A stretch of 64,000 nt of DNA from NCBI RefSeq assembly GCF_000001735.4, contig NC_003074.8, positions 3,410,101 through 3,474,100 on the forward strand, written 5' to 3'. The DNA is from Arabidopsis thaliana (taxonomy: Eukaryota; Streptophyta; Magnoliopsida; Brassicales; Brassicaceae). Position numbers and translations under genes: made by a program. Every line of letters starts with the position of its first letter. Position 1 is the stretch's first letter. Shown here piece by piece: positions 27,641 to 45,453 of this stretch. Below the pieces are notes generated by a model. The model did no database searches, was not told the origin of the DNA, and worked only from the letters and a program-made list of their open reading frames with translations.

Positions 27641-28709
27641 TCATCCAAATCGATTTCACTCTATGTGTTGTACACGCATCACATGAACAATACAACATAC
27701 TATGTCTCAGTGATATCGCACAGCTGAATAGCTGATCTACTTTCAAGTTAACATACAACACAAAAAAAAAAAAAAAACTATGATAGATAAGAAGAATATG
27801 GTTGGTAGTAAGAAAATGTATTTTCCCTAGATCAAATTCCAAAACTTGATACAAAAACTCTAAATTAACCACTGGATGGCTTCGATTCTGTCATTAACGT
27901 GCGAGAATCTCGGTGTAATCGAGATCATTATAAACTTAATGATATTTTATCATTCTAAGAGCTAGTCTTGGAAGGTGTGAAGACTTTATTAATCAAGTAT
28001 ATATAAATTATCAAAAAACACAACCCAAAAAACAGTAAGAACAATACACATCTGTAACAGCTTGTCAGTAAATTAGTAGTAATAATTAAAATCTGATAAA
28101 TACTATATGCTAAAACGTTTTGTGTATCTTATTTTTGTGAGTACACTAATACAATAATGCTTTTTTTTTTCCTTTTCATGAATAAAAAAAAACGTATTGG
28201 GACAATAATGGCGGCCTGATCAACGCTAAGTTAACTGCAACCACGAGAAAAAAAGAATCCGAGACTAGTTCTTCCCCAACGACCAATCTTATGTTGCATC
28301 AATTTCACAACAGAAGCCTTACCTTTTCATTACACGCATATTGCTTCTTCAAAGTTTCCTTTTAGATAAATTCTTAGTCTGAGTAACATCTCTTTCTTGT
28401 CTTGGGGGTTTCTCTGTAATTGCAGCTGAATCGGATCTTGGGCAATTTTTAAATTCCGATTCAACGAGTTTCTCAACTAAGGGTTTGATTCCTTTTCTTT
28501 TTCATCTTTGTTTATTCAAATCTGAATACTTTGTTAGGTTTCAATGTGCTGAGAAGTAGAAGAAGCTTCGTTGGCAAGTCCGAATCTTTTCTTCTTCTTT
28601 TTTCTGGGTTTTATATTCTTTGCCAACAATGTTTAAGCTTGCAAAGCATATATTCCTTTGAGTAGCTGTTTTATTCCTACAAAGATTTGATCTTCAATAG
28701 AGAGAGATA
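27640..28709. other. Intergenic and leader of the PLAC8 gene
   Basis: AT-rich DNA to about 28280, then a T/C-rich stretch with a plausible leader intron ending at gcag near 28426. That fits the 5' UTR of the downstream gene. No other gene supported. Confidence 0.45.
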
Positions 28710-30401
28710 ATGGGATCTAATTGTGATGGGAATTTGAAAGCAGAGATTGAAGAATCTAATGGTTCTTCTGGCAAAAATACTAAGGTTCCTCCTTGTCCTC
28801 TTGATGTTTCTACATCTAGAAGAACTTTGATTGGTGATGGTAAACCTAGGAGATGGTCTATTAGTGCTTTACCTGATGCTTCTAGTAGATTCCAGCTTCT
28901 CAAATTTGGTTCTCCTTCTGCTAAGTTCAAGAAAATGGCTGAGGATAGAGACGAGGTTTCACGGTCAGTGACTAGCTCAAGTAACGGAAGCAGTCATAAT
29001 TTCAGGGAAAGAATCAGTGGCGTGCTTCACCGGAAAATAGATTGGAGTTCTCTGATGAATATGGGGAAAGAATGGATTAGGAATCCTATTAACATGGCTT
29101 TATTCGTTTGGATACTTGTTGTTGCAGTCTCTGGTGCTATTCTCTTCATGGTTATGACTGGTATGTTGAATCATGCTTTGCCTAAGAAGTCACAGAGAGA
29201 TGCTTGGTTTGAAGTTAACAATCAGATTCTTAATGGCTTGTTTACTTTGATGTGTCTTTATCAACATCCCAAACGGTTTTATCACTTAGTGCTTCTTTGT
29301 AGATGGAAGCATGATGATATTACTAAGCTTAGGAAAGCTTATTGCAAGGATGGGACTTATAAGCCTAATGAATGGATGCACATTATGGTTGTTGTCATTT
29401 TGCTTCACTTGAATTGTTTTGCTCAGTACGCGCTTTGTGGTCTTAATGTTGGATACAGGAGATCAGAGAGACCTCCCATTGGAGTTGCTATATGTATCTC
29501 TGCTGCCATTGGAGCTCCTGCGGTTGCGGGTTTGTACACTATACTAAGTCCACTTGGGAAAGATTATAATGATTCTAATGAAGACGAGGAGAATCAACTG
29601 AAGCAACGTGAAGAAGGGTCTGTTAATCGTCGGTTTACTTTAGAGAGGAGGTATTCGTTTGCCTCTGCTTCCACGGGGGTTGGGGATGGGATGGTTCCGG
29701 TGAGTGATCCTCAGTGGAGTGGTGGAATTTTGGATATTTGGGATGATATTTCATTGGCTTATCTTTCTCTTTTCTGCACTTTCTGTGTCTTTGGATGGAA
29801 CATGGAGAGAGTTGGGTTTGGGAACATGTATGTTCACATAGCTACGTTTATTCTCTTCTGTTTGGCACCTTTCTTTATATTCAACTTAGCTGCGGTTAAT
29901 ATCGATAATGAGACGGTCAGGGAGGCGTTAGGGATATCTGGAATCCTTCTTTGTGTGTTTGGTTTGCTCTATGGTGGATTCTGGAGAATTCAGATGAGGA
30001 AAAGATTCAAATTACCGAGTTATAATTTCTGTTTCGGTAGAGCCGCGATTGCTGATTGTGCGCTCTGGTTATGTTGTTGTTGGTGCTCTTTAGCACAAGA
30101 AGTTAGGACTGCAAACTCTTATGAGATAGTGGAAGACAAATTCTGCCAAAGAAAAGAAGAGAAGAATATGGTATCTCCGAATTTGGTATCACCTTTGCCT
30201 CGTGAAGACGGTGTGTTTGATCCTCGGTTTGGTCTCGGGAGCTCCCCTAAGAACATAAGTGGAGCTAGTTCTCCTAGCCCGAGCAGGTTTTGGAAAGAGG
30301 CACATAGCCCAAATGTACAGACACCTAGAGAGAAAGAAGAGGTTAAAAGCGATGTTGCTCTGACTCCACCTTCTCCTCTGTCTATACACCGAGAAGCTTG
30401 A
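28710..30401 (+). CDS. PLAC8 / DUF2985 membrane protein
   Basis: Intronless coding region, 563 aa. The N-terminus (about 1-110) is hydrophilic and Ser-rich, with a basic RRWSISALPD-type segment. Membrane segments begin at about residue 131 (MALFVWILVVAVSGAILFM), and others follow at about 225-245, 260-280, 345-370 and 375-425. The PLAC8-type Cys block is near residues 440-470 (FCFGRAAIADCALWLCCCWC, then SLAQEVRTANSYEI). A long charged tail with SP motifs (SSPKN, SSPSPS, HSPN, TPPSP) looks like phosphorylation sites. Family: DUF2985 plus PLAC8, plant membrane proteins with unclear function; some PLAC8 members affect calcium influx, metal tolerance or organ size. I would not assign one here. 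Confidence 0.85.
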   Translation: MGSNCDGNLKAEIEESNGSSGKNTKVPPCPLDVSTSRRTLIGDGKPRRWSISALPDASSRFQLLKFGSPSAKFKKMAEDRDEVSRSVTSSSNGSSHNFRERISGVLHRKIDWSSLMNMGKEWIRNPINMALFVWILVVAVSGAILFMVMTGMLNHALPKKSQRDAWFEVNNQILNGLFTLMCLYQHPKRFYHLVLLCRWKHDDITKLRKAYCKDGTYKPNEWMHIMVVVILLHLNCFAQYALCGLNVGYRRSERPPIGVAICISAAIGAPAVAGLYTILSPLGKDYNDSNEDEENQLKQREEGSVNRRFTLERRYSFASASTGVGDGMVPVSDPQWSGGILDIWDDISLAYLSLFCTFCVFGWNMERVGFGNMYVHIATFILFCLAPFFIFNLAAVNIDNETVREALGISGILLCVFGLLYGGFWRIQMRKRFKLPSYNFCFGRAAIADCALWLCCCWCSLAQEVRTANSYEIVEDKFCQRKEEKNMVSPNLVSPLPREDGVFDPRFGLGSSPKNISGASSPSPSRFWKEAHSPNVQTPREKEEVKSDVALTPPSPLSIHREA

Positions 30402-31553
30402 TTTGTAAAACCATGGAAATCCGAGTCCACTGGTAACCCTCCTTTCCTTTCTCTTTAGATGTTGTATGAATATGATTTGAGGACAACTTTTGAATACAAG
30501 TCTCTTTGAGTGTTTTACAAAAAAAATTATGAAGCTGGTTTCTTCATGTGAGTTGTATACAATTTCAGTTTCTGGTTTAGAGAACTTTCACGGCTTCTTC
30601 TGTAATGTAAATTTGTCTGTCATGCTTCAGTGAGACTTTGAGTGATCTATGTACCTTTGCAGGCTTTGCTTTTTTACTTCTAATTCATGATTCGAACCAG
30701 ATGGTTGGAGAAGTTGTTGGCTTTTGAGGTTAAGTAGTAAGAACCATAGGAGATTTTGAGTCAGTCATATTCACAATTCTTTATTTTGCTTGGTTTTCTG
30801 GTCCGGTTTGGGGTTCAAATTCTCAAGTCTCAGTGGATTACATAAGGGATCACAGTGTATCTATAAACCCACGTATCGCTAATGGTGATCTACACCTGAT
30901 TTAGATAGAGGAGACTCCACAATGTTAACAAATAATATAAAACTATAGTGCTATTAGTGAAAATGATACCACAAGTTGTCATTAGCAGAGAAAGATCAGT
31001 ATCAATATCCAATATAGGAATGAAGCGTCACTGTCTTAAAGAGTCATTATCGTGGAGAACCACATCACTAATCCACTTATGTGTAGTTAGTTGTTTGTAA
31101 TCAACTTTTTGTATTTTCTTGTGTAATCCAACTTTTGATGTATTAGTTTAAGCTGTATTACTTTTAAAAGCTTGCCTTTATTTTCCTTGTGAAATTCTGC
31201 ATAAATATCAAAAGAGATTTATGACAAAACAATGTTGCTTTTTCATCATTAACGGTTGTGGTATTTTAGCCAATCAAATTCTTTAGTTTCTAATTTTAAA
31301 GTTGTGTTTAAAAACAAAAATGTACCACTATCGTCGACATAAGAAAAAAGTATCTAAGCTTAAAACGCTAACATTCATACCAATTTAAATTTATATCATT
31401 CCAAAGTTCTTCAAAATCCCTTAGTCTCTCTATTTCAATATGTACGTATAAAAATGTATTATAAGACATCGAAACGTGTCATGTGTACACTGAAGTCGCA
31501 GGACTAGAAGGAGCTAATAGGTGGCCATGGTGCTCTACGTGGACTCTCTGTGT

Positions 31554-31563
31554 GACACGTGTC
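31554..31563. promoter_or_regulatory. Perfect palindromic G-box GACACGTGTC
   Basis: A ten-base perfect palindrome around CACGTG, the binding site of bZIP and bHLH factors and an ABRE core. It lies about 0.9 kb upstream of SAG20, with more ACGT cores nearby (tctacgtgga, aaacgtgtca). Confidence 0.45.
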
Positions 31564-32314
31564 AAAGTGATTATGCATCTTTCAAACTTCTGTGATAGGT
31601 TGGTTGGCCCGACCAAGACGACCAACATACTCGTTGAACACGTTTCGTTGCATATTTCTGTATTCATCTGTATTAATACTAATAAGAAACCATTTCTGTT
31701 TGACTGTATTAATGAATAATGATTCCTGAAGATTTTAAATTATTTCTTCCAATAATATGAGCATAGAAAATTATTAAGAACTAATTAATTCTTTCAAGTG
31801 GAAAGTCATTATTGAAAATAAGTTAGAGATTTATCGGTTAGTGGGTTTTAAGTAATTTTAAGATGTAGAGAAAACTATGTATTAATGGATCATTATTCTG
31901 TATCAAAATTATGTGTAGTTTGTTAAATAATTTATTGATACTAATTAAAATTGGTGTTATTCTCTAAATGCTTTTTCAATAGATTCAAGAAACTTTTGAT
32001 TCCACATTTTATTTTAATAGATTTAGAAGTGTTTTTAATTGAACATAGCTAGAACTTTTGACTTTCAATTCCATTTTCTCATAAATTTATAGTTTAAACT
32101 TAAAGTCAAGAAAAAATCTTACATAAGTGATAAAATTTCATAGATATCTAAAGTCAATAGATATTTTGACTTACCAATTACCATAAGCAAATTCAATTAA
32201 CCTATTAAATATTCACCTAATACGACGACGGTGGGGTCAAACATTAGCTGGCTCAACTTTCAAAGCCCTTTATCTTCAGGTCCCACAATTTAGTTTAACC
32301 CAATAACATGGTAA

Positions 32315-32404
32315 CACGTGTCAGATTAAGCTAAATATCCAAAAACCTTAAAAATAGTATGCGTTACAGAGAATCAGATCCCAACCCCAAGCCTCTATAT
32401 AAAT
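32315..32404 (+). promoter_or_regulatory. SAG20 core promoter: G-box and TATA box
   Basis: CACGTG at 32315-32320 lies about 80 bases upstream of a TATA box (TATATAAAT, 32396-32404). Transcription would be expected to start near 32425-32440. This placement matters because it puts the upstream ATG at 32359 outside the message and leaves no AUG before the conserved protein frame opens. Confidence 0.6.
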
Positions 32405-32492
32405 CCCAGAATCATCAGTACCATTTTTCAAAATCCTTCAAGAATCGCTTCATCTTCTTCTTCTTCAACAAATCGAGTCCTTTTTCTGATAA

Positions 32493-33008
32493 CTCATTTC
32501 GATTTCAGAAACTCGCCAAGAACTGGATACTCTGGCGGAATCAGAGATTAAGAACCGAGACGTGGTTCTGAAACTGTATGAAGCCCTGAGATCTCGCGAC
32601 GTCAAATCTGTGCACCAGATCTTAACCCCAGATCTGGAGTATTGGTTCCACGGTCCTCCGCCGCACCAGTTTTTGATGCGCGTACTCACCGGAGGTGTCT
32701 CTCCGTCTTCTTCCTCCTTCGAATTCGTACCTCTCTCCGTCGTTTCCTTCGGATCTACCGTAATCGCGGAAGGCTGCGACGCCGCGACATCGATTTCTTG
32801 GATCCACGCTTGGACTGTAGCGAATGGGATAATCACACAGGTGAGGGAGTACTCTAACACTTCTCTCACCGTCACACGGATCGGTAACGTTGTTGCTGGA
32901 CGACGCTCCGCTGAGATTGCGCCTCCGTCGCATTGTTCCTCCGTGTGGGAAAGCCAATTCTCGGGTCGGGCTGGTAAACCCGTACCCGGTTTGGTTCTGG
33001 CGATTTGA
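32493..33008 (+). CDS. SAG20: SAG20 / WI12-type NTF2-like protein, start codon uncertain
   Basis: Wound- and senescence-associated protein of the WI12/WUN1 family with an NTF2-like fold. The open frame runs from just after the stop at 32490-32492 to 33008. The conserved fold begins at about 32544 (EIKNRDVVLKLYEALRSRD, then LEYWFHGPPPHQFLMRVLTG), and the family C-terminus is VWESQFSGRAGKPVPGLVLAI. No in-frame AUG precedes 32676, where the context is weak (ttgATGc); a start there gives 110 aa, like the classic short WUN1 proteins, but drops the first helices. In-frame CTG codons at 32523 (G at -3, G at +4) and 32532 (A at -3, G at +4) are good near-cognate candidates. The coordinates show the open frame, not a proven start. 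Confidence 0.8.
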   Translation, partial: LISISETRQELDTLAESEIKNRDVVLKLYEALRSRDVKSVHQILTPDLEYWFHGPPPHQFLMRVLTGGVSPSSSSFEFVPLSVVSFGSTVIAEGCDAATSISWIHAWTVANGIITQVREYSNTSLTVTRIGNVVAGRRSAEIAPPSHCSSVWESQFSGRAGKPVPGLVLAI

Positions 33009-34102
33009 AAGAGTTTGGTAAAGTAAGTAACAGCCACGTCAGGAGAATAACTAAATAAAGGCTGCTTACGTGTCTGTGTGTGGTTGGTTTGTTTGTTGTA
33101 TGGGTTAAAAAGGATTTTGTTGCTGTTTTAAACGCGGTGTGGGCTTCTGGGGCTACGGTCGCGTTTGGCTGTCGCTAGTTTTTTTTTTTTTTTAAGTTGT
33201 TTGTCTGAAAATTCGTGTGGGTTTGTGTTTTTTAGTGGGAGCAAGTATGGGGAAACCCAAATCGACTTGTTGTCCCGTTGCGTTTGATGTAACGTTTGCT
33301 TATGTTATAATTGAAATAAAAAAGTGCTTTTGGGATCTTTTGATGATTAAAGTTGTTTAGTACGAGAAGTTGTGCATTTGTTGGCAAAAGATGATAACCA
33401 TAACGTATGGCCCATATCTTTTTGTGAATTAGCCATGATTTGATAAACAAGTTGATTATGTACCTCATTTTGTAATAATATCAATGCGTGACAACTTTAT
33501 TTGGTTATTGTGGATTATAGGATTTGATACATAAGAGTTCTGTTTATCTAAGTTTTCTGATTTGGATATTGTGGCTTATAGGATTTTACTACATAGTTTG
33601 TCTTCAATGGAAAAAGAAGTATAGAATTGAAGAATTGATTAAATGCAATCGTGGACGCAAATATTAAAAAAGAGTTAAAAATAATGAAAAGAGAAAGAAT
33701 TGGGAGTGGGAAGCAACGAGGAAGGTCACTTGTGCGTCTTTTTGTGGATGTGGACACGCATTTATTCGCGTGATATATTTATCTTTTGGCGTTTGTATGG
33801 TCAAATTGGTGTGACGACTGGAACGATAATAACAGAACGGAGGAACTAGTAAACAAAACACATTAATCAATTTTAGAAGATAAAACTTATAAAAGTCTAC
33901 ATGGGCGTATTCATTTTTTTTTTAATTAAACGTGCGATGCACTGACGCAAATGTTGACATTCATTGAACTAGATGTGTTTTTGATGTCTCCCATACCCAA
34001 AATATTCATGAAATGTTATCCAAAATATTTATGTATATTACAAACCCATTTATCTAAAACATTTGAACAAAAATGTATACTGAAACAGTAGTTTTTTTTT
34101 GT
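33009..34102. other. Convergent 3' region of SAG20 and LURP-one gene
   Basis: About 1.1 kb between converging stops. A poly-T run at 33178-33193 and AT-rich DNA; no gene supported. Confidence 0.45.
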
Positions 34103-36361: not shown

Positions 36362-37021
36362 TCACTTACCGTTAAGCTCTTCCATTCCTTGGATTTCAAG
36401 TCTTATGATCGTGTTCCTCTCGATATTGTAGTAGAAGACGTAGGAAGGCATAAATGTAGATGGGTACTTGTACGAAAACACAATTTCATTGGTGCAACTG
36501 CCAACCATTCCAAGAAGTCGTAGCTTGGTCTCTTCTCCAACTACATTCTTCCACAGAGGAGGCAACATGTATACATGCTTCGACCAATCATGTTTTTCAG
36601 CGTCTTCTAGGACCCGCAACTCGAAACTTTTACTTGTTCCACTAACAATATCGGTAGACTCTTCCGTCATCAACAAACCTAATTTGCCATTGTAGTTTAT
36701 CATAGTTGTTGAACTAGGCAAATCTCTATCGAAAGTTTCCATGACTTTCATAAAGCTGAACTTCTCCGAGCTAATATCGAAGCAAACTACTATAGTAACC
36801 ATTAAAGACCCTTTTTCGACGGCAGTATAATACAAAACACTGTTAATGCATATTTCAGTACCACGAGGAACATGGGGTTTGCAACATTCAATCATCCTCC
36901 ATGATTTTCTTTTAGTTTCTAGTGTTAGAACTTGATACTCTTGGCATTGATACTCGTTAGCCAAAACCTTGAACTGTTTCTTAGTCTTACAAAAGTAAAA
37001 GAATTGTGCAATACTTGCAAC
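36362..37021 (-). pseudogene. Truncated F-box-associated (FBA) gene
   Basis: Keeps only the middle and end of a plant F-box protein with an FBA_3-type domain. Recognisable blocks: KTKKQFKVL, EYQVLTLETKRKSWRMIEC, PRGTEICINSVLYYTA, VCFDISSEKFSFMKV, NYNGKLGLL, and KHDWSKHVYMLPPLWKN. No F-box (usually residues 1-50) or first repeat is present upstream, where the DNA is plain AT-rich. The frame is open from a stop just before 37021; its first ATG is at 36895, leaving 177 aa. After the TGA at 36362-36364 the same frame goes on with the family ending NHVENIKLVQVF, so the C-terminus is also cut short. Likely a decaying host F-box copy. If expressed, it could not join an SCF complex through an F-box. 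Confidence 0.75.
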
Positions 37022-38341: not shown

Positions 38342-40183
38342 ATGTGTGTGAGGAATCTGAAGAAGGGAGATCTTTGTGGGGTTATATTTGGATGCAAGTT
38401 CAGCACTATCAAAGAGTGCTATGCTAAGAATTTGTTTGGTTAGTTGGCTATACAATCTTTGAGGCTTAAAGTTTAATGACGACCAGGATTTTGAAAATGA
38501 TGCTTGTTTTGTGAACAGGCTTACCAGCCCCGCACATGGCTTATATCAAGAACATTGATCCTGGTTTGACGCTGTTCCTGTTCAACTACAGTGACAGAAC
38601 ACTTCACGGCATCTTTGAAGCTGCTAGTGAAGGAAAACTGAACATTGATTCCAAAGCTTGGTCTCCAAATGGGACAGATCCAAGTCCATATCCTGCTCAG
38701 GTACCTTTGCTTAGTACAGAACGTCTTCTTTAGTTGAGTCACCCAAATGTCCTCTAAACAGAAATGTATCTCGTTCTGCAAATCTTTGCCACAGGTAAAG
38801 GTACGAGTCCGAGTGCGGTGTGAGCCCTTGCCTGAAGAAAAGTTCAGCCCAGTAATTGTTGAGAATTACAATGACGACAAGATGTTTTGGTTTGAACTAG
38901 ATCGAGGTCAGACAAACAAGCTGCTCCGTTTGTTTAAACCATCCCCATCTGTTAGGCCACCAACGATATCCAGAGATGCTGTACCACCACCCAGAAAGCC
39001 TATTCCGGCATCTTCTCTTGCACAGATAGGTGACTCGGGAGCAACGCGTATTGATAAGTGGAGCAATCTGTTCAAATCTTCCGATGAGTCTACCAAAAAC
39101 AAAGAGAAAGACTCGAAAGAAGGTGCACTCGGAGCAGGTTCGAGATTAGTCAATCTTGGAAAAACTAAAGAATGGGAAACAGCTTCCAATAATGCAGATG
39201 AGCGAAGAACTCAACCATCAGTGTCACAGTCTGGTACATCTTACTCATCAGCTCTGAGTCACATGACCGCTTCTTCAACTCAGGAGAAGAAAAATTCTAT
39301 AACAAATGAAGGTTCATCTCAAGCATGTAAAGGTGTTGAAAATCCTTGGACATCTGCTGCTCGAGTTCCACCTATACACCAAGACAGTGGAGGATTCAGA
39401 AATGCTGCAATGGAAGGTGAAGATGTCAAAGTGAATGCTTATCATCATCAGCAAAATCTCCATCCAACACAAAAGGGAACCTCTACTACAGCTAACAATA
39501 GAATAGTACCTAGCATTAGCAAGGAAGAGCCTGCTGAGGATACATATTCATTCATCGATTGGGATGCAACATCTTCCTTTCAAGTCCATCTCGATGGACT
39601 GAACAAGATTTTGGAGGATCCTAAGGATAAGGAATGTTTCAAGAGCTTAGTGGGTAACACAGGACAAGCTTCTTCATCTATGGTGCCTAACAGTTGGGAG
39701 GATGACTTTGAGGAAAGAAGTATAGCTAAATCGCCTTGTGGATCATCGTATGTTTCTGCCGGTACAGGAGACGTGGTTGATGACATCGGACGTATGGATA
39801 ATTTCAAGATGGAAATTGGATCTCCCACTGTTGTGGATATATTGACTGAGGTAAGTTTAAGGTCATCCATCGTTCTCTGAACTATAAAAAACAGTTTTGC
39901 TTGTGACCCTCTAATGAAACATTATGAATATGTTTTTCTCTGCTAGCTATTGGCGGAAGTCAAGGAGTTGAAGCATACTCAGCTGAAACAAGCTGAGAGG
40001 ATGATTACTTTGGAGATGGAGCTGGTAAAAACACTTTGCAAAACTCGTAAATTGATACTTTTTCTTTTGTTTTTTTCTTACCTAGCTTCAAATGCAAACT
40101 TTCTTATCTTTTGTTTGGGTTCTTTGCAGCTTGAAACAAGAAGGGATATACTTCGGCTAAAAGGGAGCAATGGAAGTTTTTAA
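38342..40183 (+). CDS. DCD (development and cell death) domain protein
   Basis: Five coding exons: 38342-38438, 38519-38700, 38795-39850, 39947-40024, 40130-40183, giving 488 aa. The DCD domain fills residues 1-125: RNLKKGDLCGVIFGC, STIKECYAKNLFGLP, YIKNIDPGLTLFLFNYSDR, LHGIFEA, and PYPAQVKVRVRV. The long middle exon codes for a Ser/Thr/Asn-rich, probably disordered region, and the end (residues 447-482, LLAEVKELKHTQLKQAERM onward) is a likely coiled coil. DCD proteins are linked to stress, ABA and cell death responses; the molecular role is not known. I start at 38342 because an earlier in-frame ATG at 38270, whose peptide resembles the family N-terminus MGAGRKT, is closed by TAA seven bases before 38342. 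Confidence 0.9.
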
Positions 40184-40887: not shown

Positions 40888-43761
40888 CTAGTGAGTTGTT
40901 GTGTGTCTTTTCCGTCTACGATTGTTTCGGCCAAAAGGGTTCATGAACCACTCTGGTTTATAGGAAACGAGTATGTATCCAAACATCAAACCAAAGGCAA
41001 TACCAGGTCCGAATCCTATTGCAGCTGCTATCCAACTAATCAGATCTTCGTCTTCTTCCTCTGTTTGCGGCGTTTCAAACTGTTGATGTGATGCTGGCGT
41101 GTGAATATCTCTGCAAACTTCTTCAAGAGAAGAGCCGAAAAGTCCCAAGTTACCTTCAAAGGAAGAGCAACGCTGCGTTAGAAACTGCTGGCCTCCTGGT
41201 ACTAGGCCTGTAAGCTGGTTATGAGAGAAGTTCATATACGAAAGCAACGAGAGGTTCCCTATCTCTTGTGGGATTTCTCCATAAAGCTTGTTCTGGGAAA
41301 CGTCCAACGACTCGAGAGCTGTCAGGTTCCCTATAGATGAAGGGATGTGGCCGGTGAAAGCATTGTTTGACAAGTTGAGCACATGAAGCTCTTTCAATAG
41401 ACCGATGGACTTTGGAATCTCTCCTTCAAATTTGTTTCCCGAAAAGTCGACTGCTGTGTAGATTGTGAGGATACGTACCAGCTCCGACTCTACACCTTTA
41501 TTCATCAAAACCATTGAATCTTGGTAATAGCCTGATCCCAGGTAGTTTACATTCGACCCATCTTCGTATGTCCCAAGTGATGACATCCTACTCCACTCCA
41601 CAAAATACTCTGTCGGCAAACTTCCATTGAAGTGATTATGTGATATGTCGATGATTCGCAACTTAGGGAACAAGGCTTGATTTATTGGTCCATGGAATGC
41701 ATTGGAGCGAAGGACAAGAACTTGTAGCTTTTGTAGAGAACTCAACCAGAACGGAAACATGTCGTTGATTCTGTTGCTTTCCACGTTCAAAACTTCAAGA
41801 TTAGAGAAAAATCTCAAAGATCTTGGAAGCTTTCCCACAAGCTGGTTATGGCCGACATCAAGCGACCTTAGACTTTCGAAAATATGCTCTGGAAAACCTC
41901 CACTAAGATTATTTTGACGAAGGTTTAGTTCTGAAAGATTACTCTTGAGATTTTCCATACAACGAGGGATTGAACCGCTAAAGTTGTTGTCTGATAAATC
42001 GAGAGTGTATAGAGAACGCAACTCACATATGAAAGAAGGAATCTTGCCGGTGAAGTTATTGTTGGAGCCAAGCAAGTACGCCATAGATGGTTCAGGTTTC
42101 GTTGGTCTTTGGAAACCGATGAAAGTGTTGTTGGAAAGATTCAAGTAGAACAAGTTTGGTAGCGTCCATAACCAGCCAGGAACTTGACCTTTGATTTTGT
42201 TGTTGGAAACGTCTAGAAACCCCAATTCGTGTTGTGTTCTTAGGATCTCTGGAAAATCGGTGATACCGCATCCTGACAAGTACAAAGATTGTATCGATTG
42301 CGAAGGAGGATCTGAAGAAACTGAAGACTTGTTTGTGGCTGAAACAAGGTTGCCTGAGAGATCCAATGAACGGAGCGTCTTGAAATATGGTAAGATATCG
42401 TTCAAGTCAATCGTAGTGGTGGTCAAATAGGATAGCCTAAGATCGTCAAGCGACTTGAGATGCGAGAAGATACTAAAGTCAACTGGGCGACATTGGGTGT
42501 TTAAATGGGAAATGCCAAGTTCCTGAAGGTTGATTAATTTGGAAATGGAACTCGGGATTGGTCCTATGAAGTTGTTGCTGCCAATGTTAAGGTATTGTAG
42601 GTTAGATGGTGAAGATATATTCCCAAACTCAAGAGTGCCTTTGAGTTGGTTACCACTCAAACCAAGGTAAGTCAAAGAAGGAATGATGAAGAGAAAAGAA
42701 GGGAATGTTCCGGTGAAGGCGTTGTCACTTGCATAAAAAGCCATCAAGTTGGATAGTGAAGTGATATTAGGAGGAAGCGTGCCTGTGAACTTATTGTTGG
42801 AGAGTGATACAACTGACAACCCTGTCAAGTTTAGTAGGACATTGGGAAAGTTTCCACCGAGCTTGTTGAAAGAAACATCTAAGCGGGTCAGCTGGTTTAG
42901 ATTGCCAAAAGAAGATGGGATTTCACCATAGAAATTGTTAACAGAAAGGTAGAGAACGATAAGTTGAGAAAGGTTGCCAATCGAAGATGGAATCTGACCC
43001 GAATATTTGTTATAAGAAAGGTGGAGATTGGTGAGATTAGAAAGACCTCCAATTGAAGACGGAAACTGACCAAAAAAACGATTACCAGAAAGACCTAGAA
43101 AGGTGAGATGAGAAAGATTACCAATTGAAGATGGAATCTGACCAAAAAAACGATTACCAGAAAGACCTAGAAAGGTGAGATGAGAAAGATTACCAATTGA
43201 TGATGGAATCTGACCCGAAAACTGATTAAAAGAAAGGTCGAGAGAGGTGAGACGAGAAAGGTTTCCGATTGAATTCAGAATCTGACCCGAAAAACGATTA
43301 TAAGAAAGGTCGAGAGAGGTGAGATGAGACAGATTTTCAATTGAAGACGTGATTTGACCTTCAAAATCATTATGTGAACGGTCTAGAGTGGTTAGGAAAT
43401 GAAGGTTTCGAATACTGCTGTTGGAATGAAACCGGCCATGGAGGGAGCTGCAGCTAAGGTTGAGCTCGATCACTTCCCCGGACTTGGCATTGCACGTGAC
43501 TCCCTCCCAATTACAACAGTCGCTGTTATTCCCCCATGACTCCGTCTTCCGATGAGATTCAATGCCAACCATCTTACAAGTAGGAGAAGGCTTCCCAATC
43601 TCAAACTCGTTTTTGAACTTGAGAAGTGCATCCTTTTGTTCGGGACGACACAAGTGCCTAGTAGGAGCCGCAAGCACGTCCGAAAAATGACAAATGAATA
43701 AGAAAGTAAAAGAAAGAGTAATACGAATGATACTCGTTGAGACCACCCAAGAGCCTTTCAT
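40888..43761 (-). CDS. RLP34: Receptor-like protein with extracellular LRRs
   Basis: Intronless, 957 aa from the ATG at 43761. Order: signal peptide (about 1-31), N-terminal cap with the paired Cys block [10 protein letters not shown], about 25-28 LRRs of the plant type ([26 protein letters not shown]), an island region before the last repeats ([28 protein letters not shown]), an acidic spacer ([11 protein letters not shown]), one TM ([20 protein letters not shown]) and a short basic tail without kinase. It needs a partner kinase such as SOBIR1 to signal, by knowledge of the family. A shorter start at residue 64 would give 894 aa but lose the signal peptide, so I prefer the longer. It shares a near-identical tract with RLP35, and one LRR is freshly duplicated at 43068-43200. 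Confidence 0.94.
42119..42509 (-). repeat. RLP34 part of the near-identical inverted tract shared with RLP35
   Basis: 391 bases that match 61573-61963 on the other strand with a single difference seen by eye. The difference changes one residue (LDLSGN here, LDISGN in RLP35). Outside the tract the two genes diverge visibly in both bases and residues. Confidence 0.85.
43068..43210 (-). repeat. 72-bp LRR unit duplicated in tandem within RLP34
   Basis: Two adjacent 72-base units, beginning at 43068 and 43140 on the plus strand, are almost identical (about 60 bases in a row without change). Each codes for one 24-residue LRR with the core [14 protein letters not shown]. The neighbours, though also LRRs, are clearly less alike. 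RLP35 does not show the same pair. Confidence 0.85.
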
Positions 43762-45453
43762 CCTCCTTAATTTACGCTAGCTAGCTAGTCGAATTTTCTT
43801 GAATATTGATAAAAGAAAGTGGAGTTTGTGGTAGTAAATAAGATGGTTTCGTGCCCATCTCTTTATAGACATAGTAATAGATTCTACTCCACAAAGATAA
43901 ATCCAACACAGCTTGACTCACATTATATAACCAGTCTTTCTACCAAGTGTTCTTCACGTTGAAACGAAAAGACTTAAAAGAGTCTTCATGTTGAATAGTC
44001 CATTTCCACACATTTTGTCTTTACTTTAATTACGTACAGGAAACTTCGAAAAGTTGTTTTCCCAACCAAATTGGACGACTTGTTACTATGTCTATAAGTC
44101 TGATATTATTAGTTCAGAGATGGATATTATCAATTTTGTGCATCAGTCTGAAAAACAAACTCGGGCTAAGGCCCAACAACATAGGAGGATAAAAATAAAA
44201 CGCAGGCCCATTTGATCACATTCCACCGAACTCAGAAGAGTATAAGTATTCCCCTTTTTGAAAAGAAAGAACAGATAACGTAAGATCGGTTGTGTCTCGC
44301 CGCAATTTCTCTTCATACCGTCGTCAACATGTAACGTTCTGTAGTCCGCATGAAACCTTAGCAAATTCGCGAGCTTCGATTTCCAAATTATGGGGGTTTA
44401 GGCCGACCGATAATTGAAGACCGTGATGACGAGTTTGATTTTGTCTCATTGATAATGCGTGGACATTTGCTTTGTGTTTGATGATTACTGTTAGAGACTT
44501 AGAGTTATTGTACTTAGTAGAAGAGACTAATTGTAAATTAATTAATGCGAGCTTTGGAGTTCAAAAAACCTATAACTGAACTAGAATCTCGTTAATTATT
44601 TGTGTGTTTCTCTGATTTTATGCTTTCAGGATAAAACACTGTTTGATGTGCTTCGTATATTCTCTCTTAGAATGAAATGAATTCAGAAGAAAAGTTTGTG
44701 GGTGATGGTGATAATCATGGTTGTGATGTTGCTTTGTGTTTGTTTGATTACTTATTTTTTGGAATTTTGGATGTATATTATTCAATTTAATATACTGCCA
44801 TACTAGAAAATAAATATTATAGATTATAAATCTACTTTTTTGGTTATAAATTATTCATAACATACTGTTAATTTGTTTTCCTCAAAATATCAGATTATTG
44901 TTCAAATATTGACTATAATCTTTAAAATGAGACTTTCTTAATAATTAAGTTTCATTATTTAAATATTTATTTCTTAAAATATTAGTATGGTTTTGTGATT
45001 CTTGAGTCTTAACATGTACATATTGTATTAAATATGTTTCTGTATGTGTTTATCAACTATAGTAAGGATTCCCATTGCTTACCCGTATTGAGAGCGTGTT
45101 TTTGTGTGGTGAAAATTTCAACACGTGTCGTCACTGGGGAATGTTATGATCCACAATTCGAATTAATAAGTGCCATGTCACTACTACTCTCATTAAAATA
45201 TCAGAAATATCTAGACAAAGTTATAAATACCCTTTCGACCTCTTGATAATATCTGATTTCTGTAAAAAGTTTGTTGTCTTTACAAAAAGAAAAGAAAAAA
45301 GAGACGCTAGAAAGAACGCGAAAGCTTGCGAAGAAGATTTGCTTTTGATCGACTTAACACGAACAACAAACAACATCTGCGTGATAAAGAAGAGATTTTT
45401 GCCTAAATAAAGAAGAGATTCGACTCTAATCCTGGAGTTATCATTCACGATAG
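43762..45453. promoter_or_regulatory. Divergent promoter between RLP34 and DREB2B, with DREB2B leader
   Basis: About 1.7 kb without a gene before DREB2B exon 1. A TATA-like ttataaatacc lies near 45220. The DREB2B leader exon then runs to 45453, followed by the donor GTATGT. DREB2B promoter responses to drought and heat are known for the family but I cannot point to a certain element. Confidence 0.5.

Follow-up and report, generated by a model that had tools for sequence, protein, structure and literature searches.

SAG20 of Arabidopsis thaliana, a WI12/WUN1-type gene with a probable CUG start codon

Plant genes whose main open reading frames begin at a codon other than AUG include AGAMOUS, FCA and organellar DNA polymerase. 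The SAG20 locus described here is like these in having a coding region without an AUG and a putative near-cognate start codon in what would be presumed to be the leader. It differs from them in that the extension appears to lie within a globular domain and in that it is known from the sequence alone. By its title, the work of van der Horst et al. 2019 (RNA 25:292) reportedly concerns conserved in-frame 5′ leader extensions in Arabidopsis and non-AUG main open reading frames, and both this work and that of Li and Liu 2020 are said to be highly relevant to the question of non-AUG starts. Judged by title, the extensions of van der Horst et al. 2019 are the same kind of object as the extension of SAG20, and the non-AUG start of SAG20 may already be in earlier lists such as theirs. 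Non-AUG initiation in plants is established, though uncommon, and the CUG start of SAG20 is a good further candidate.

A passage of a Plant Cell review gives CUG as the commonest near-cognate start codon (PMC11062462). In a portion of a 2022 riboproteogenomics paper, CUG accounts for 14.1% of non-annotated Arabidopsis start sites (PMC8770321), and near-cognate starts that include CUG are reported in the main text of Willems et al. 2017 (PMC5461538). The latter main text names neither SAG20 nor any AT3G number, and the gene number AT3G10985 is absent from the main text of the riboproteogenomics paper. The words start codon are absent from the available portion of a soybean WI12 paper (PMC8753364), and the papers found to name AT3G10985 do not take up start-codon choice in their titles or in the beginnings of their abstracts. 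No paper that treats SAG20 and non-AUG initiation together was found in the literature search; among the matches listed, none had non-AUG beside SAG20, WI12, WUN1 or AT3G10985, and peptide words from the extension or from the WI12 family were absent from the literature searched. The work of van der Horst et al. 2019 is cited in a portion of PMC9305500.

The locus is found in a stretch of 64,000 nucleotides (contig NC_003074.8, positions 3,410,101 to 3,474,100, forward strand), termed the window; positions are counted from its first letter (Table 1). We take the locus to be AT3G10985 (SAG20). It is likely that SAG20 is a single-exon gene that starts at the CUG at 32532 and encodes an NTF2-like protein of 158 residues, with a short form as at most a minor product. 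Within this reading the exact start codon, the message start, the fold and the absence of an upstream exon are predictions. Ribosomes would scan from near 32430 and meet no AUG before initiating at CUG 32532, which is in strong context; CUG 32523 may be used as well. The product would be a WI12/WUN1-type protein with an NTF2-like domain, whose whole coding sequence is in one exon. The short form would be minor at most because AUG 32676, itself in a poor context, comes after AUG 32578. A preliminary description of this DNA had suggested that a short AUG form is perhaps also made; this can stand as at most a minor product, and is less likely than was implied. The pairing of the name SAG20 with the number AT3G10985 is given in a portion of PMC11901513.

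Table 1. Features of the SAG20 locus, with positions in the window
Feature	Position	Strand	Remarks
TATA box TATATAAAT	32396..32404	+	Seen in sequence; putative role, from sequence and position
Predicted 5′ leader without ATG	32430..32531	+	Start is a CA about 34 bases past the start of the TATA box
In-frame TAA stop	32490..32492	+	Bounds the coding frame; seen in sequence
SAG20 open frame	32493-33008	+	171 codons plus stop; seen in sequence
Plausible 3′ splice site TTTTTCTGATAACTCATTTCGATTTCAG	32507-32508	+	
CUG, candidate start	32523..32525	+	G at -3, G at +4; 161-residue form; putative use
CUG, most likely start	32532..32534	+	A at -3, GCG next; 158-residue form, Met-Ala-Glu-Ser-Glu-Ile-Lys...; putative use
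Proposed full SAG20/WI12 coding sequence	32532..33008	+	158 residues plus stop; from homology and profiles
Putative coding extension	32532..32675	+	48 codons; probable NTF2-like domain start and YWFHGPP motif; from paralogue homology, weak SnoaL_2 match and 3EBT/3FGY
Possible hairpin	32551..32569	+	7 bp; 16 bases past CUG 32532; -7.5 kcal/mol
Out-of-frame AUG, 3-codon open reading frame	32578..32589	+	T at -3; first AUG 3′ of the TATA box
Short open reading frame from first in-frame AUG	32676..33008	+	110 residues; poor context; extent is exactly that of the Pfam WI12 match
Peptide SVHQILTPDLEYWFHGPPPHQFLMR			Predicted; spans the internal Met of the SAG20 frame

Four ATGs are found on the + strand between 32300 and 32720, at 32308, 32359, 32578 and 32676. 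That at 32308 is 5′ of the TATA box, that at 32359 is in a frame different from that of SAG20, and that at 32578 lies 3′ of the TATA box, between the two CTGs and 32676; a sequence scan of 32405-32577 found ATG absent. If the TATA box is a guide, the message would start near 32430. From there the sequence is free of AUG for 148 bases, up to AUG 32578, which is followed by AUG 32676. AUG-free runs of this length are not rare, being found in 8% of window stretches and 17% of randomised leaders. Several statements of the preliminary description are confirmed by the sequence: that the frame opens after the TAA at 32490-32492 and has no in-frame ATG until 32676, that the context of the latter is poor (T at -3, C at +4), that there is a TATA box at 32396-32404 with an ATG at 32359 in another frame, and that the CTGs at 32523 and 32532 have a purine at -3 and G at +4. 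Its statement that 32359 is the only nearby ATG was wrong, as the other three ATGs show.

The stop-free run of 61 codons upstream of 32676 has a probability of about 0.066, which is unremarkable by itself and weak evidence of coding. Comparison with a paralogue gives the decisive evidence. The Pfam WI12 profile and the SAG20 open frame were each searched against the genome (119,662,809 bases in 7 contigs), and both queries pointed to the same two WI12-family places, SAG20 and one on contig 5, among the best candidates, the only ones scored, such that more distant WI12 copies could escape. The contig 5 locus, which is presumably AT5G01740, is like SAG20 in its family match, in its upstream segment and in having one open frame. 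It differs in having an ordinary AUG: its 180-codon open frame has the first Met at residue 19, giving 162 residues, and this AUG, at C5:280793, is in a good context (ACAAATGGAAG) and shares the open frame with the upstream segment.

The homology of the two proteins starts at SAG20 codon 10 (32520) and continues ungapped past the YWFHGP motif. Ahead of Met 62, 19 of the 52 aligned codons encode identical residues, and beyond it 43 of 101. Counted by codon position (1, 2 and 3), the differences are 29, 20 and 37 in the first part, and 44, 37 and 71 in the second; the third position is the most divergent in both, a pattern of the coding type. An alignment limited to the part before Met 62 scores 106. 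The best of 2000 shuffles reaches 41 (mean 21.8), and the other 35 of the 36 frame pairs of both DNA stretches score at most 46. The two best of these other pairs (46 and 39) are corresponding frames of the opposite strand, as is expected because coding stretches align. From this comparison of two sequences, SAG20 and the contig 5 paralogue, in one genome, the segment of SAG20 upstream of 32676 is almost certainly protein-coding. Two features of a non-AUG main open reading frame are found here: coding homology extends upstream of the first in-frame AUG, and a near-cognate codon in good context precedes the conserved segment, with no in-frame AUG of the exon that could serve this segment. No relatives of SAG20 were found in the scanned viral contigs, bacterial and archaeal genomes, and plasmids.

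The SAG20 protein is a member of the WI12/WUN1 family (PF07107), with 165.7 bits against a curated cut-off of 27 and a match to the full profile, 1-104. The WI12 score is 166 bits for the 158-residue form and 167.5 bits for the 110-residue form. The first residue matched is precisely the internal Met (residue 62 of the open frame), and the Pfam model therefore omits the conserved upstream segment. A second family, SnoaL_2, is matched by residues 13-103 of the form that starts at CUG, along positions 2-101 of its 102-position profile (E 8e-4), a weak match of 20.4 bits that is under the curated cut-off of 27; for the 110-residue form the Pfam search lists no such match. When a single sequence was searched against the PDB the matches were weak (TerC, E 0.01; 3EBT, E 0.46). 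A two-sequence profile gave 3EBT at E 3.2e-4 and 3FGY at E 2.2e-3, both crossing the boundary at 32676, with the upstream segment aligned from residue 5 or 6 of these proteins onward; the 3GRD and TerC matches of this profile cover mainly the part after 32676.

The SnoaL_2, 3EBT and 3FGY matches make it most likely that the upstream segment forms the first part of an NTF2-like domain; this is a weak fold assignment, and we take the segment to comprise the first helices of that domain. The two NTF2-like proteins 3EBT and 3FGY are like SAG20 in aligning over both the upstream segment and the later part. They differ in that their sequence similarity to SAG20 is weak, and a shared function is not implied. 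The preliminary description had held that the sequence ahead of 32676 codes for protein, that it needs a non-AUG start and that it is part of an NTF2-like domain. This is supported by the paralogue and, to a lesser degree, by the matches to family profiles and to NTF2-like proteins of known structure. Single-sequence structure predictions of the 158- and 110-residue forms were unusable, with pLDDT values of 41.6 and 39.5. There was no NCBIfam match for the three proteins searched, and no Rfam match over 31500-33600. In a portion of PMC4608573, WI12 is placed among the domains of a tree with NTF2 and SnoaL.

The near-cognate codons in frame before the part aligned to 3EBT and 3FGY include AUU at 32496, 32502 and 32547 and CUG at 32523 and 32532. 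As all of these precede the aligned part, the long form might be made mainly from CUG 32523 or from one of the AUU codons, which we regard as a lesser possibility to be kept in mind. The paralogue alignment starts at codon 10, just before CUG 32523, and would accommodate such a start, although the match before codon 14 amounts to two identical residues in four. Against the other codons is the better context of CUG 32532, with A at -3 and GCG following, as the three AUUs are without one or both of the context bases. An A at -3 together with a following GCG is close to the plant start consensus. In randomised sequences of the same dinucleotide make-up, the first 20 codons (32493-32552) would contain one or more in-frame CTGs flanked by a purine at -3 and G at +4 with a probability of about 0.021, and two with a probability of about 0.0002; this test was picked after the sites had been seen. 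Base composition changes in the same region: overall G+C is 0.33 in 32427-32492 and 0.51 in 32532-32675, and at third positions it goes up from 0.31 over the 13 codons of 32493-32531 to 0.60 over the 48 codons of 32532-32675, which are small numbers. The third-position rise weakly favours a coding start near 32532.

The possible hairpin at 32551-32569, 16 bases past CUG 32532, is placed close to a distance that is reported to favour initiation. It has a z score of -2.41 in a 30-base piece chosen post hoc, and of -1.15 and -1.01 in 50-base and 100-base pieces. The hairpin was left out of the evidence for use of the CUG because it is modest and was chosen post hoc.

An unlikely alternative is that only the 110-residue form is made, from AUG 32676, and that the sequence upstream is a relic left after loss of an ancestral AUG. 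The absence of an in-frame AUG upstream and the start of the Pfam WI12 match exactly at Met 32676 are both consistent with this, and the context at 32532 is what a change of AUG to CUG would leave. A relic is not readily reconciled with an upstream segment that is stop-free and nearly as similar to the paralogue as is the rest of the protein (19/52 compared with 43/101). Moreover, the short form would be without the start of the NTF2-like domain, and its AUG has the unfavourable bases noted above and lies behind AUG 32578.

Very unlikely is an upstream exon, transcribed from a promoter at least about 0.9 kb away, that contributes an AUG in frame through splicing to the acceptor at 32508. In its favour, there is an intron-like 3′ end just before 32509, and a donor after 31566 (AAA|GTGATT, 7 of 9 consensus bases) could join an ATG in frame. 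However, such in-frame joins number three where 4.4 are expected with randomised upstream sequence, and 75.5% of 200 randomisations gave at least three. Two of the three joins go to an acceptor before 32670 and delete the conserved segment, with one keeping it. In addition, a TATA box is found just 5′ of the gene, and the AUG of the paralogue shares one open frame with its own upstream segment. Joins were counted for donors up to 1.5 kb upstream of 32676 with at least 6 of 9 consensus bases and for two acceptable acceptors. Donors 3′ of the TATA box that would use the acceptor of 32481-32508 to give an in-frame AUG were not found. GT-AG splicing within 32405-32700, with introns of at least 60 bases, was likewise tried as a source of an AUG and rejected, as none is in frame before 32676. 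The segment 32481-32508 itself, which surrounds the in-frame stop, resembles the last part of a plant intron in its CTGATAAC, its many Ts and its CAG.

If initiation is at CUG 32532, a SAG20 protein that begins at the first in-frame AUG would lack 48 N-terminal residues out of 158, with which the domain starts, and constructs, tagged proteins and overexpression lines made from AUG 32676 would probe an incomplete protein. In that case the WI12 family model, too, would seem to begin inside the real domain. Given that the gene takes its name from senescence and wounding, the choice of start codon could be a control point. A broader and tentative conjecture, which we think has a real but smaller chance of being correct, is that the whole WI12/WUN1 branch is without an AUG: the CUG would be kept across plants, records and the Pfam model would be cut at the internal Met for that reason, and stress or senescence would alter how much the CUG is used and hence how much folded protein is made.

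Upstream of the gene, ACGTG motifs are found within 31535-31563, about 0.9 kb away (CTACGTGG, GACACGTGTC), and at 32314-32322, about 75 bases before the TATA box (ACACGTGTC). These are presumably G-box/ABRE-like, and would fit a stress-responsive promoter.

The opposite strand carries an open frame of 220 codons from stop to stop (32465-33127) that covers the whole gene. It has no Pfam match and is taken as a by-product. Neighbouring open frames encode a DUF2985/PLAC8 protein (28701-30401), an F-box associated domain protein (36362-37021), a development-and-cell-death domain protein (38738-39880) and a leucine-rich repeat protein (40888-43776).
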